In this document: positions 41,318 through 46,530 of the stretch, one piece after another
Numbering within the stretch: position 1 is the first letter of the stretch
How the letters are laid out: each line of letters begins with the position of its first letter
Assembly (NCBI GenBank): GCA_903944895.1
Contig: CAJATL010000347.1
Location: 1 to 51,362 of the forward strand
Direction of reading: 5' to 3'
DNA from: an uncultured Bacteroidota bacterium
GTDB taxonomy: Bacteria > Bacteroidota > Bacteroidia > Bacteroidales > 4484-276
Length of the DNA stretch: 51,362 bases
Notes under the pieces: generated by a model
Databases searched by the model: none
What the model was told of the DNA's origin: nothing
The model's input: the letters and a program-made list of their open reading frames with translations, nothing else
Program-made: the position numbers and the translations under genes

Positions 41318-41517
41318 CTCCGTCGCTCTTTTTATCTCTAACTTATTCTTTTATTTAGCGTTACAAGTGACTGCCGACTTGTGATTTCAGATTTAGGATT
41401 TCAGATTTAGGATTGCCTTACTGCCGAATGCCCACTGACGCCAACTGCCAACTGCTGCCTGGTGACTGCCGACTAGCGCATGCCAACTTCTACAATCTTT
41501 CGCTTAAAAACTTTTTC

Positions 41518-41525
41518 TATCTTTG
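41518..41525 (+). promoter_or_regulatory. -7 box of the pseudouridine synthase gene
   Basis: TATCTTTG, a TAnnTTTG match 20 bases before the chosen start codon, with a T-rich -33 area. It decides the start at 41545, because a start at 41413 would lie upstream of it. Confidence 0.6.
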
Positions 41526-41544
41526 CACCCAATTTAATAATTTT

Positions 41545-42876
41545 ATGAAAGATTCTGAAAATCCACGGGTTCCCGGCGGAAAATCAAGCAAACATGGTGA
41601 TTTTTCCAAATTCATCAAAAAACCACAGGCGCCATCTAAATCCTCTAAAACTGCAAAGCCGGGGCGAAAAAAATTCAACGAAGGCGATGAAAAGCCAAGG
41701 TTCAAGGCTTCATCCAAACCCGACACAAGGTCAAATGACAGGTCGTCGTCCGGATATTCTGAACGACAGGATACCAGGTCTTCCGACAGACCTTCATCAC
41801 GACCACCGGCAAGATCTGCTGAGCGGTCAGATTCACGACCACCTTCAAAATATCCTGAAAGATCTTCAGAAAGACCTTCATCAAGATCAACCGAAAGACC
41901 AACTCCAAAACCATCTTCACGGGCAGCGGCACGATCGATGGATAAATCTTCAGAGCGGCCTGCTTCACGACCTTCTTCAAGACCATCTTCAAAACCATTT
42001 GAAGGATCATCCGAAAGAAAATCCTCCAAACCTTATGAAAGATCATCAGAAAGATCATCAGAAAGGTCATCGGAAAGACCATTTAAAAAATCTTTCAATA
42101 AATTTTCCTCCGACCGGCCCAGGCGAAAACGGACTACAAAAAGCAGCGACCCAATTGCGGGAACAGGCATGATCAGACTTAATAAATTTATTGCCAACTC
42201 GGGGGTTTGTTCGCGCCGTGAAGCCGACAACCTGATTCAAACCGGCGCTGTGCAGGTAAACGGAGAAATTGTTGCTGAACTTGGTGCCAGGATAAATCCC
42301 ACCGATAAAGTGCAAATCGGTGGTCAGACCCTCACCACCGAAAAAACACAATACGTCCTGCTCAATAAACCCAAAGGTTTCATTACCACCACCGACGACC
42401 CGCTCGAACGCAAAACCGTGATGGCATTAATCGAAAACGCCTGCAAAGAGCGTGTGTATCCGGTTGGCCGCTTAGACCGCAACACCACAGGCTTGCTGTT
42501 GTTTACCAACGATGGCGAAATAGCCAAAAAACTTACTCACCCGCGCCATGAATTAAAGAAAATTTATCATGTTTACCTCGACAAACCACTGACAAAGAGC
42601 GACATGATTAAAATCAGTGAAGGTGTACATCTTGAAGACGGTTTCATAAAACCTGACAATATTTCGTATGTTGGTTCAGGCGTCGATAAACACGATATCG
42701 GCATCGAGCTGCATTCGGGCAAAAACAGGGTTGTCCGCCGGATTTTTGAAACGCTTGATTATAAAGTTGAAAAACTCGACAGGGTATTTTTTGCAGGCCT
42801 CACTAAAAAAGATTTACCACGCGGCAAATGGCGGCTGCTGACCAAAGAAGAAATTAACTTTTTGAAGATGTTGTAA
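41545..42876 (+). CDS. RluB/RsuA-type pseudouridine synthase with long disordered N-terminus
   Basis: A 443-residue protein. The C-terminal 230 residues are the enzyme. An S4 RNA-binding domain (GMIRLNKFIANSGVCSRREA) comes first, then the catalytic core with VYPVGRLDRNTTGLLLFTND, where Asp of GRLDRNT is the nucleophile, and LHSGKNRVVRRIFETLDY. It should convert a uridine in 16S or 23S rRNA to pseudouridine. The first 205 residues are a low-complexity Ser/Arg/Pro/Glu tail (many SSERP/SSRP repeats), probably disordered and RNA-binding. The frame extends upstream to 41413 but lacks homology and precedes the promoter. Its last 23 bases overlap the response-regulator gene. Confidence 0.9.
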   Translation: MKDSENPRVPGGKSSKHGDFSKFIKKPQAPSKSSKTAKPGRKKFNEGDEKPRFKASSKPDTRSNDRSSSGYSERQDTRSSDRPSSRPPARSAERSDSRPPSKYPERSSERPSSRSTERPTPKPSSRAAARSMDKSSERPASRPSSRPSSKPFEGSSERKSSKPYERSSERSSERSSERPFKKSFNKFSSDRPRRKRTTKSSDPIAGTGMIRLNKFIANSGVCSRREADNLIQTGAVQVNGEIVAELGARINPTDKVQIGGQTLTTEKTQYVLLNKPKGFITTTDDPLERKTVMALIENACKERVYPVGRLDRNTTGLLLFTNDGEIAKKLTHPRHELKKIYHVYLDKPLTKSDMIKISEGVHLEDGFIKPDNISYVGSGVDKHDIGIELHSGKNRVVRRIFETLDYKVEKLDRVFFAGLTKKDLPRGKWRLLTKEEINFLKML

Positions 42877-43561
42877 GTTTAAACCCGCTTCCGTGGATAT
42901 TCACAATTTCGATGGAAGGGTCATCTTTGAGGTATTTGCGCAGTTTAGTGATAAAAACATCCATGCTGCGTGTGGTAAAATAATTTTCGTCGCCCCAGAT
43001 CTTTTTTAAGGCAACTTCACGCGGTAAAATTTCACCGGTTTTCAGGCATAACATGCGCAGCAACTCTGCTTCGCGGGGCGAAAGTTTCTGCTCCAGGCTG
43101 TCGAGCAAAATCACGCGGTGCGGGTAATTGAAGCAATATTTTCCAATCATAAACTCACCTGAATCCCCCTTTTGATTTTCCTGAATTTCATTTCTTTTCA
43201 GGATGGCCTGCATTTTACAAAGCAATACTTCCGAATCGAAAGGTTTGGTAATATAATCGTCGGCACCCAGGTGGTAGCCTTGCAAAATATCCTGCTTGAG
43301 GGTTTTGGCGGTAAGAAAAATAAGCGGAATATTTTTGTTGATGAGTTTGATTTCCCTGGCAATCTGGAAGCCGTCCACGTTGGGAAGCATCACGTCTAGG
43401 ATGCAAATATCGAAATCCTCCGAACGAAATTCGCGCAAGGCATATTTCCCGTCGTCAACCAAAGTAACCACATAATCGTTGATCTCGAGGTACGATTTGA
43501 GCACCGCCCCAAAATTATGGTCATCTTCAACCATGAAAACATGAACCTTTTTTCGCATCAT
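42854..43561 (-). CDS. OmpR-family response regulator, RprY-like
   Basis: A 235-residue DNA-binding regulator. The receiver domain has the acidic pair in MVEDDHN, the phosphorylated Asp56 in ICILDVMLP and the Thr/Lys pair in FLTAKTLKQD. The winged-helix C-terminus (about 135-230) ends with SMDVFITKLRKYLKDDPSIEIVNIHGSGFKL. The kinase gene overlaps its start by four bases, so the two form one operon. The layout matches the RprX/RprY system of Bacteroides. The phased TTAAC repeats upstream of the operon (45268-45304) are its likely binding site. Confidence 0.93.
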   Translation of the reverse strand: MMRKKVHVFMVEDDHNFGAVLKSYLEINDYVVTLVDDGKYALREFRSEDFDICILDVMLPNVDGFQIAREIKLINKNIPLIFLTAKTLKQDILQGYHLGADDYITKPFDSEVLLCKMQAILKRNEIQENQKGDSGEFMIGKYCFNYPHRVILLDSLEQKLSPREAELLRMLCLKTGEILPREVALKKIWGDENYFTTRSMDVFITKLRKYLKDDPSIEIVNIHGSGFKLTTSSKS

Positions 43562-45228
43562 TCTTGATTTTTGAAAGGTAAAAAAATATCAAAACGGCTT
43601 CCTTTTCCGGGTTCACTCTCCAATAAAATTTTCCCTCCAAAGGCCAGCACAATGGCTTTTACGTAACTCAAACCCAATCCAAAACCTTTTACGTTGTGAA
43701 TATTTCCGGTGGAAACCCTGAAAAACTTGTCGAAAATCTTATGCTGAGCTTCTTTGGTGATTCCAATTCCACGGTCTTCAACCGAAATTTTAATGCCTGC
43801 TGCGGTATTTTCGGTACTAACCCTGATGTAAAGTTTTTCGGGAGAATATTTGCAGGCATTATCCAAAAGGTTGGTAATTACGTTGTAAAAATGGTTTTCA
43901 TCGGTTTGGATAACCGGATTTTCAGCTTTCAGATCCAGTGCAACTTCGCCTTCTTTGCGTTCGACCTGCAGTCGGAAATTTTGGGCAGCCCGTTTAATAA
44001 TTTCATGAATATCGAGTTCCATCACCCGCAGGTCAAAATCCCGTTTATCGATCAGCGACATTTGAAGCACGTTTTCAACCTGGGCGTTCATGCGGCGGTT
44101 TTCTTCTTTGATGATGCCGGTAAAATATTTCACCTTTTCAGGAAAATCGAGCACTCTGGGATTATTTATCGAGTCGGCAGCCAGCGAAATAGTGGCAATA
44201 GGTGTTTTAAATTCGTGAGTCATGTTGTTGATAAAATCCGACTTGATTTCGGAGATTTTCTTTTGCTTCAAAATTACCAAAATTGTAACCGAAAAAGTGA
44301 TGATAATAATCAGCGTAAAGATGATCGATCCCAACAAGAGGAAGAAAATAGAACCAAAAAGATGCTTTTGTTGATGAGGAAAATCAAGTAAAAGGAAATT
44401 TGGCTTTTGAAAAATATCATTTGGGAAAAGGCTGATTCGATAAGGGCTTTCGAGGTTTTCATCAGTAAATCCGACCGATTTTATGGGGATAAGATCTTCG
44501 CCGGTTCCTGAAATAACCGCAAATTCAAAATCATCTGAAAGGCCTTTATTGTCCAATGATTTTCTTACCTGGCTTTCGAGATATTCTTTGTCGAGCCGTT
44601 CCGCGATGGGCATGTGGTAACTTTCGACTTCTACAACCATTTTGTTAAACATATCACTGAGTTCTTCCGAACGCTGTTCGACTTTAACTGAGGTACTGAT
44701 TGCGAAATGCGCGGAATCGTCGCTGTTTTTGTAAACAAAAACCTTTGTTTTTTCTCCTCCAGGCGAAATCCTGGTTTCATCAAAAGTTGAAGTTACCACA
44801 ACCTGTCCTGGTGAAGCAGAATTAAAGAAGTATTGCCGCTGCACCGAATCAACGTAACTATGAATTTGATTATCGGTTTTGAGATCCTTTTCGAGCCATT
44901 CCAGATTTTTATCCATGCCTTTAAGTTCAGATAAGCGGGCTTCAAGCGAGTCATTCATCCTGAAACTGAAGTTCATCACCGAATCTAATCCCTGAAACTG
45001 AAAATCGTATTGTTGCCTGATTTCATCCAGGTTTTCGCTTAAAAGCAGGACATTTTCGTTTTTCTCAAGTTTTCCAACAACATCTGTAAGGGCATCGTTA
45101 ACCTTACGGCCGAAATGCTCTTTTTGAATGGCGATCGCATTTTGAATCCAGAACAACTGAACGGCAACGATTCCTGCCAGCGATACACTCATCAGCACAA
45201 TAATTAGAATAAATGTTTTTCTGTTCAT
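43558..45228 (-). CDS. Sensor histidine kinase, RprX-like
   Basis: A 556-residue membrane kinase. Transmembrane helix 1 is residues 6-27, a periplasmic sensor of about 265 residues follows, and helix 2 lies at about 293-318. The HisKA domain has the H-box NNMTHEFKTPIATISLAADS near residue 335. The HATPase has NLLDNACKYSPEKL (N box), SVEDRGIGIT (G1) and KGFGLGLSYVKAIV (G2). The periplasmic part has no recognised ligand-binding fold. The kinase phosphorylates the downstream regulator. Promoter at 45233-45265. Confidence 0.94.
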   Translation of the reverse strand: MNRKTFILIIVLMSVSLAGIVAVQLFWIQNAIAIQKEHFGRKVNDALTDVVGKLEKNENVLLLSENLDEIRQQYDFQFQGLDSVMNFSFRMNDSLEARLSELKGMDKNLEWLEKDLKTDNQIHSYVDSVQRQYFFNSASPGQVVVTSTFDETRISPGGEKTKVFVYKNSDDSAHFAISTSVKVEQRSEELSDMFNKMVVEVESYHMPIAERLDKEYLESQVRKSLDNKGLSDDFEFAVISGTGEDLIPIKSVGFTDENLESPYRISLFPNDIFQKPNFLLLDFPHQQKHLFGSIFFLLLGSIIFTLIIIITFSVTILVILKQKKISEIKSDFINNMTHEFKTPIATISLAADSINNPRVLDFPEKVKYFTGIIKEENRRMNAQVENVLQMSLIDKRDFDLRVMELDIHEIIKRAAQNFRLQVERKEGEVALDLKAENPVIQTDENHFYNVITNLLDNACKYSPEKLYIRVSTENTAAGIKISVEDRGIGITKEAQHKIFDKFFRVSTGNIHNVKGFGLGLSYVKAIVLAFGGKILLESEPGKGSRFDIFLPFKNQE

Positions 45229-45232
45229 GCTT

Positions 45233-45265
45233 CAAAAATACAAATTAATAAACCCGCGATTGCAA
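45233..45265 (-). promoter_or_regulatory. Promoter of the kinase-regulator operon
   Basis: On the minus strand, TTG (45265-45263), a 22-base spacer and TATTTTTG (45240-45233), just ahead of the kinase start codon. The phased TTAAC array begins three bases upstream of the -33 element. Confidence 0.6.
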
Positions 45266-45267
45266 CC

Positions 45268-45304
45268 TTAACTTTTCGTTAACCTTTGTTAACCTAACCT
45301 TAAC
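45268..45304. promoter_or_regulatory. Four helically phased TTAAC repeats, probable regulator binding site
   Basis: TTAAC occurs at 45268-45272, 45279-45283, 45289-45293 and 45300-45304, i.e. at 11-, 10- and 11-base steps, all on one face of the helix. This is the form of OmpR/PhoB-type operators (direct half-sites about one helical turn apart). It lies between the divergent kinase operon and the T9SS gene, directly upstream of both promoters. Confidence 0.7.
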
Positions 45305-45326
45305 TAAACACGGGTTCAGATAGTTA

Positions 45327-45334
45327 TAGTTTTG
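45327..45334 (+). promoter_or_regulatory. -7 box of the divergent T9SS gene
   Basis: TAGTTTTG matches TAnnTTTG. The -33 region has no TTTG; its place is taken by the last TTAAC repeat 22 bases upstream. This is expected for a promoter that depends on an activator. Confidence 0.6.
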
Positions 45335-45383
45335 CTTCGTGAAACAAACATTTAACCATCATAAAATTTCGGAGGATTAAAAC

Positions 45384-46475
45384 ATGAAAAAAAATTCGTT
45401 AAACTTTAAAATGATTGCTGCGGTAATTTTTGCTGCCATCTGCATTCTGGCTTTGGGAACATCGCTTTTTGCCCAGACAGGTAGCGAAAATCCTAAAAAG
45501 GAACACACCAAAACCATCACGCTCAAAATTGTTGAAGATGAAAACGGCAAAGTCACAAAAATCGACACTACCTTTATTTATGAAGGTGATGATCCGTCAA
45601 GCCAGTTTTTCTATTGGAATGATGATAAAAATCTTCAATATAATTTGAGTAAGCTCGACTCGATGAATTTCAAATTTGATTTTGAAACCAATTCTCTGGA
45701 CAGCCTTGAACGCTCCAAGTTTTTTATACAATCTGATAATGAAGAAGAAATGAAAGGGATTGAAGAAGAAATGAGAAAGTTCCAGGAGTTTACATTCAAC
45801 ATTCAGGATTCGCTTGAAGCCGATGGGATGAAGCGGATTTGGGTAACCGTTGACCATGATTCAAACGATTCAATAATCGAAAAAAACATCAAAATAATTA
45901 AAGGTGGTAAAGACCGGGTAATCGTCGTTGGAAGACCGGATACGATTATTACCAGAGATGGACAGAAAATTATGGTCACAACCGACGTTGATGACGAAGA
46001 CGGCCAGACGATGAAGACAGTCACTGTTACCACGGACGCTTCCGGGAATCAGGAAAAAACCATCACTGTAACCGTTGATGGTGAAGATGTTGATGTTCAA
46101 AATATAGAAGAGGGTAAAAAAATCATCATTGTAAGAACAAAAGTTAACATTGACGAGACTGAAGATGCTACAAAAGAAGAATTGAAAAGTGCAGGCATCA
46201 AAGAGAAAAATGGTGATCTTGAAGTTGAGAATCTTAAATTCTCTCCAAATCCCGGCAATGGCAAATTTAACCTGAGTTTTTCGGTTAAAGAAAAGAAAAA
46301 GGTAACCATCAATATTTACAACATCAAAGGCAACCTGGTTTACAGTGAGACTTTAAAAGATCTTGAGGGAACCTATAATAAGGAAATCGACATTTCGGAT
46401 GAAGAATCCGGCACCTATTTTATTCAGATCATCCAGGGAATTTACGACATCATCCAGAAGATCATTATTCAATAG
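45384..46475 (+). CDS. T9SS-sorted acidic secreted protein, likely target of the two-component system
   Basis: A 363-residue exported protein (signal peptide residues 1-29, cut near LFAQ). The central part is acidic and rich in Asp, Glu and Thr, with repeated VTVTTDASGN- and EKTITVTVDGEDVDV-like strands, suggesting beta structure. The C-terminal 80 residues are a T9SS sorting domain (LKFSPNPGNGKFNLSFSV to GTYFIQIIQGIYDIIQK). No named domain was recognised in the middle. It is divergent from the kinase-regulator operon across 155 bases holding the phased repeats, so it is probably controlled by that system. A strong terminator follows. Confidence 0.85.
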   Translation: MKKNSLNFKMIAAVIFAAICILALGTSLFAQTGSENPKKEHTKTITLKIVEDENGKVTKIDTTFIYEGDDPSSQFFYWNDDKNLQYNLSKLDSMNFKFDFETNSLDSLERSKFFIQSDNEEEMKGIEEEMRKFQEFTFNIQDSLEADGMKRIWVTVDHDSNDSIIEKNIKIIKGGKDRVIVVGRPDTIITRDGQKIMVTTDVDDEDGQTMKTVTVTTDASGNQEKTITVTVDGEDVDVQNIEEGKKIIIVRTKVNIDETEDATKEELKSAGIKEKNGDLEVENLKFSPNPGNGKFNLSFSVKEKKKVTINIYNIKGNLVYSETLKDLEGTYNKEIDISDEESGTYFIQIIQGIYDIIQKIIIQ

Positions 46476-46502: not shown

Positions 46503-46530
46503 AAAAAAGGGGCCGTAAAGCCCCTTTTTT
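46503..46530. terminator. Bidirectional terminator
   Basis: GGGGC (46509-46513) pairs with GCCCC (46520-46524), with T run 46525-46530 on the plus strand and A run 46503-46508 for the minus strand. It serves the T9SS gene and the convergent DUF6249-like gene. Confidence 0.85.

Follow-up and report, generated by a model that had tools for sequence, protein, structure and literature searches.

Direct-repeat operators and autoregulation are textbook features of OmpR/PhoB-type regulators: in the pho box of PhoB and at OmpR-type sites, direct repeats at 10-11 bp are bound by head-to-tail dimers and take the place of the -35/-33 element. In Bacteroidota, few regulator binding sites have been defined, and the promoters of this phylum (-33/-7) are unlike those of the E. 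coli type. A search of open-licence papers for TTAAC arrays already described from Bacteroidota gave only the TTTAACA motif of PhoP, a flavobacterial OmpR-type regulator of Riemerella anatipestifer; the report on it describes this motif, obtained by DAP-seq, and the binding of PhoP in EMSA to a 35-nt stretch that precedes its own operon (PMC9603813). RprY of Porphyromonas gingivalis also binds its own promoter in EMSA and has been proposed to be a repressor (PMC3646045). RprXY of Bacteroides and RprY of P. gingivalis are the best family match of the regulator considered here, and the papers on these systems state no motif or consensus (PMC3646045, PMC6032018). The CpxRA-CpxP and Spy feedback modules, in which an envelope two-component system is encoded adjacent to a secreted protein that it co-regulates, are alike by analogy only.

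The window, that is, the whole stretch of 51,362 nucleotides of an uncultured Bacteroidota bacterium that was analysed, contains a gap of 155 bases (45229-45383) that separates a kinase-regulator operon on the minus strand from a gene for a secreted protein on the plus strand. The features of this locus are as follows.

42854-43561, minus strand: OmpR/PhoB-type response regulator of 235 aa (Response_reg and Trans_reg_C), overlapping the end of the kinase gene; the presumed ligand of the array.
43558-45228, minus strand: RprX-like sensor histidine kinase of 556 aa (HisKA and HATPase_c).
45233-45240, minus strand: -7 box TATTTTTG in the promoter of the kinase operon, at 27 bp from the array.
45268-45304, plus strand: putative operator of four exact TTAAC half-sites starting at 45268, 45279, 45289 and 45300 (steps of 11, 10 and 11), directed away from the kinase.
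45327-45334, plus strand: -7 box TAGTTTTG of the secreted-protein promoter, exactly 22 bp past the last half-site, which lies where a -33 element would be.
45384-46475, plus strand: secreted protein of 363 aa with a signal-peptide-like start and a T9SS C-terminal sorting domain.
46503-46530, minus strand: terminator-like stem-loop just past the secreted-protein gene, weak and recognized by pattern only.

In comparison with R. anatipestifer PhoP, the core of the half-site (TTTAACA) is alike and the site again lies upstream of the regulator's own operon, but the accessible part of the PhoP report mentions neither a four-unit 11-10-11 array nor fixed spacing to two promoters nor a secreted partner encoded divergently (PMC9603813). 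The array of the window also differs from the PhoB pho box and OmpR repeats in its half-site and in the primary sigma factor, with its -33/-7 elements, and, unlike them, it would serve two divergent promoters, each at a fixed distance of its own. The four-unit grammar, these two fixed distances, the tie to two families of secreted proteins and the differences in flank and spacing among paralogues appear to be undescribed in the searchable open literature.

The initial annotation had described the operon as RprXY-like and the divergent gene as a T9SS gene. The kinase and regulator genes adjoin and overlap, which is the gene adjacency expected of RprXY, and the adjacent regulator has the receiver and winged-helix Trans_reg_C domains of the OmpR/PhoB type. 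Its best NCBIfam model is RprY, but the score of 285.1 bits falls short of the curated equivalog cut-off of 370 bits, and the system is therefore named RprXY-like only; a paralogue on contig C365 is closer to RprY (327 bits). The tail of the secreted protein exceeds the cut-offs of both T9SS models (PF18962, 53.9 bits against 27; TIGR04183, 39.5 bits against 23), but only part of its family has this tail. A crude count, and nothing finer, makes the N-terminus hydrophobic; conservation through the middle of the protein is poor. There is a single full-length copy of this protein in the genome, in which the tail domain recurs about 50 times. The window also holds, at 41413-42876, an S4/pseudouridine synthase gene with a long, low-complexity N-terminal extension rich in Ser, Arg and Pro.

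The four exact TTAAC units, previously reported at steps of 11, 10 and 11, were recovered at the same positions, and the exact four-unit pattern has no other match in the window. When up to three mismatches are allowed, the second match in the window is the same site on the opposite strand, and a dinucleotide-shuffled window averages 0.04 matches. In the genome of 7.17 Mb, at least three TTAAC at 10-11 base steps occur in three places (the window, C94 and C422), and exact four-unit arrays in only two; the second, on C94, is again spaced 11-10-11 and lies upstream of a paralogous kinase, opposite a divergent secreted protein of 114 aa. The 10-10 triplet on C422, a phage-like contig with no kinase, was taken as chance. 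The genome-wide search for two or more phased TTAAC units that had been suggested as a means of listing a regulon proved uninformative: phased pairs are not enriched, with 83 matches versus 116 for the reversed word, and since pairs stand at or below the level of the control, no two-unit regulon can be listed by motif search. With just two four-unit arrays in the genome, the longer pattern does not yield a larger regulon either.

Conservation of the array was approached from the motif and from the kinase. A search of 198 genomes of the order for exact TTAAC-N6-TTAAC-N5-TTAAC-N6-TTAAC, blind to proteins, gave 33 places in 27 genomes, and the reversed control pattern gave none in the same 198. 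An RprX-like kinase adjoins 30 of the 33 arrays (27 of 30 fetched loci, G182:C4 and two placed via kinase coordinates), and TTAAC is directed away from the kinase every time; the arrays that are not beside such a kinase are L142, L143 and L149. Within the family, the pattern is matched in 11 of 12 genomes with at most two mismatches. Kinase loci were also gathered by protein similarity without the motif, plus stretches around paralogues in related genomes, and 42 of the 86 loci counted (those where the upstream region was usable and a regulator gene lies next to the kinase, and including a few paralogue stretches picked because an array had already been seen there) match the four-unit array at 18 or more of the 20 half-site bases. 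The maximum among 1720 shuffled upstream regions was 16 of 20, and none reached 18.

Among these loci, 11-10-11 is the most frequent spacing (31 loci), 10-10-10 is that of one clade, starred in the regulator tree, and 10-10-11 is found only at Cytophagales-type loci. The spacing class tracks the ancestry of the regulator, with 12 changes versus 35.9 when labels are shuffled, a count that is inflated by near relatives. In other lineages (Saprospiraceae, Flavobacteriaceae), about half of the kinase loci show just two units or no unit at all. Relatives preserve the head-to-tail direct repeats at 10-11 bp, and those that keep the kinase retain four TTAAC with the 11-10-11 spacing as well as the exact distances to the two -7 boxes. 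The check on relatives that the initial annotation had named as able to refute it was carried out, and the annotation withstood it. The same gene pair is found in Maribellus luteus (L055), a cultured relative.

These distances were counted over 58 distinct exact arrays, with TAnnTTTG as the Bacteroidota -7 box. On the side of the secreted gene, this box lies 21-23 bp past the last TTAAC in 53 of the 58 arrays (22 bp in 36, 21 bp in 11 and 23 bp in 6); in the window it is 22 bp, the value given earlier for this plus-strand -7 box without a -33 element. A half-site replaces the -33 element at a constant 22 bp and no other -33 remains; at its fixed spacing from the -7/-10 box, the repeat stands at the -33/-35 position. 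On the kinase side, the box lies 26-28 bp from the end of the array in 42 of the 58 (27 bp in 21, 28 bp in 12 and 26 bp in 9). In a footprint alignment of seven loci, most of the columns that stay invariant belong to the four TTAAC and to the -7 boxes of the two promoters. The array had further been placed next to the -33 element of the kinase operon, and the TTG so named does exist in the window, two bases from the array, but it is not conserved: TTG is found at 18-23 bp in only 4 of 42 relatives (control set: 35 of 157 other box-bearing starts). Because a half-site stands at the -33 position on one side and TTG is kept in only 4 of 42 relatives on the other, the operator appears to touch two promoters, neither of which has a good -33 element, and, as far as sequence can tell, the layout of the array is that of an activator site as viewed from either end.

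We are therefore confident, though short of certain, that the array is an operator common to two divergent promoters, to which the regulator would bind to activate the secreted-protein gene and autoregulate the kinase operon. Since the docking site and its base-exact distances to both promoters have been kept across many Bacteroidota, the regulator very probably turns on the secreted protein along with its own operon. The phosphorylated regulator (42854-43561) would bind as two head-to-tail dimers, one per TTAAC-N6-TTAAC pair, and the two dimers would stack on one face of the helix, 10 bp apart. On the plus side, the last half-site is at the -33 place, 22 bp before the -7 box, as in PhoB-type (class II) activator sites, so the regulator bound there would be expected to recruit polymerase and switch the secreted-protein gene on. 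On the minus side, the array lies 27 bp before the kinase -7 box, just upstream of -33, from where it may mediate autoregulation of the kinase and the regulator, and the secreted protein possibly feeds back on the sensor. The sequence and its conservation, the constant distances, the association with the gene pair and the survival of the array where the genes have parted are direct observations, from which we go on to infer the identity of the bound protein, the dependence on phosphorylation, the activation on both sides and the possible feedback; of these steps, we are least sure of the sign of control.

If that sign were reversed, the array would be a repressor operator at which the regulator blocks both promoters until phosphorylation releases it. 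We consider this unlikely: the proposal that P. gingivalis RprY is a repressor that binds its own promoter (PMC3646045) and the closeness of the kinase-side array edge to the -33 region would agree with it, but a half-site that replaces the -33 element at a constant 22 bp, with no alternative -33, has a geometry that suits an activator.

Control of both genes by one regulator can also be considered in a genome (G100) where the two genes are apart. In G100, the gene for the secreted-protein homologue is not beside the kinase and has its own stand-alone four-unit array with a -7 box at 22 bp, and the kinase homologue, on another contig (C64), has three phased units with a -7 box 27 bp on. The operator stayed with each gene after the split, and no other comparative evidence speaks as strongly for a single regulator acting on both.

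The gene across the array from the kinase has a signal-peptide-like start in 48 of the 50 arrays with an open frame, and at the two exceptions (L147 and L148) the automatic pick looks like the wrong frame. The partners fall into two classes. Class A consists of homologues of the window protein, some of which have the T9SS tail whereas several lack it. Class B partners are short (about 100 aa), secreted-looking and rich in Cys, Lys and Asp (L119:1082-1426; L120-L126, L144, L146), and they match no Pfam family above the cut-off.

The genome has four RprXY-like systems. Systems A (the window) and B (C94) have the 11-10-11 array, and system C (C159) has two GTTAA 21 bp apart. System D (C365) has 10-10-10 spacing with one degenerate unit, in an operator common to a divergent phosphoglucose isomerase gene (PF00342), and its -7 box is again at 22 bp (L163:589-1944; upstream of L163:2283, G000:C365). 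TTAAC is followed by A in 80-95% of class B units versus 0-29% of class A units; the R. anatipestifer PhoP motif has A at this place, like class B and unlike the window (PMC9603813). The recognition helix of the regulators, RSMDV[FY], is nearly invariant. Because flank and spacing differ while this helix is nearly the same, we infer that the half-site flank and the unit spacing are candidates for what keeps the paralogues apart.

Competition for the window site could nevertheless come from three paralogous regulators whose recognition helix is nearly identical, and it is conceivable, but quite improbable, that the array belongs to one of the three paralogous RprXY-like systems or to a global factor, in which case adjacency to the kinase would reflect cross-regulation. 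The half-site and a nearly identical recognition helix are common to at least three of the four paralogous systems, and all paralogous regulators score best against RprY; on the other side, the array remains beside its own kinase in the order-wide scans, and the class-specific base after TTAAC and the restriction of 10-10-10 spacing to one regulator clade make each operator look matched to its own regulator. That an AT-rich word merely clustered by chance, or that the repeat plays no part in regulation, has next to no likelihood, because, common as TTAAC is (147 copies in the window, both strands counted) and unenriched as its two-unit pairs are, the reversed control gave no four-unit array in the 198 genomes, and the conservation, which is locus-specific and tied to both promoters, refutes it.

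The shared activator operator may belong to something wider, although we propose this only tentatively and would rather expect it to fall short: a Bacteroidota-wide module of paralogous two-component systems, each sharing a four-unit operator with a divergent secreted partner from one of two unrelated families, where flank and spacing would separate the paralogues and the partner would feed back on the sensor. At the level of the locus, the analysis offers a widespread kinase family a predicted operator whose geometry is exact to the base, and it links uncharacterised secreted proteins of two families with particular sensors. Paralogues with a common half-site but different flank and spacing allow the avoidance of cross-talk between related regulators to be tested directly, and the array motif is usable for genome annotation.

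Some individual arrays deserve mention. The array of L149 (G051:C56:2717-2753) is exact but lacks both a kinase and a -7 box at the distances seen elsewhere, and is perhaps due to chance. At L143 (G182:C1:296625-296661), an exact array lies between an IgA-type M64 peptidase gene and a secreted-looking ORF of 110 aa with no kinase nearby, and this locus is a candidate additional target. At L116/L037 (G007:C144:426-520), two full four-unit arrays stand in tandem between the kinase and the secreted gene, and each promoter is rightly spaced from one of them.
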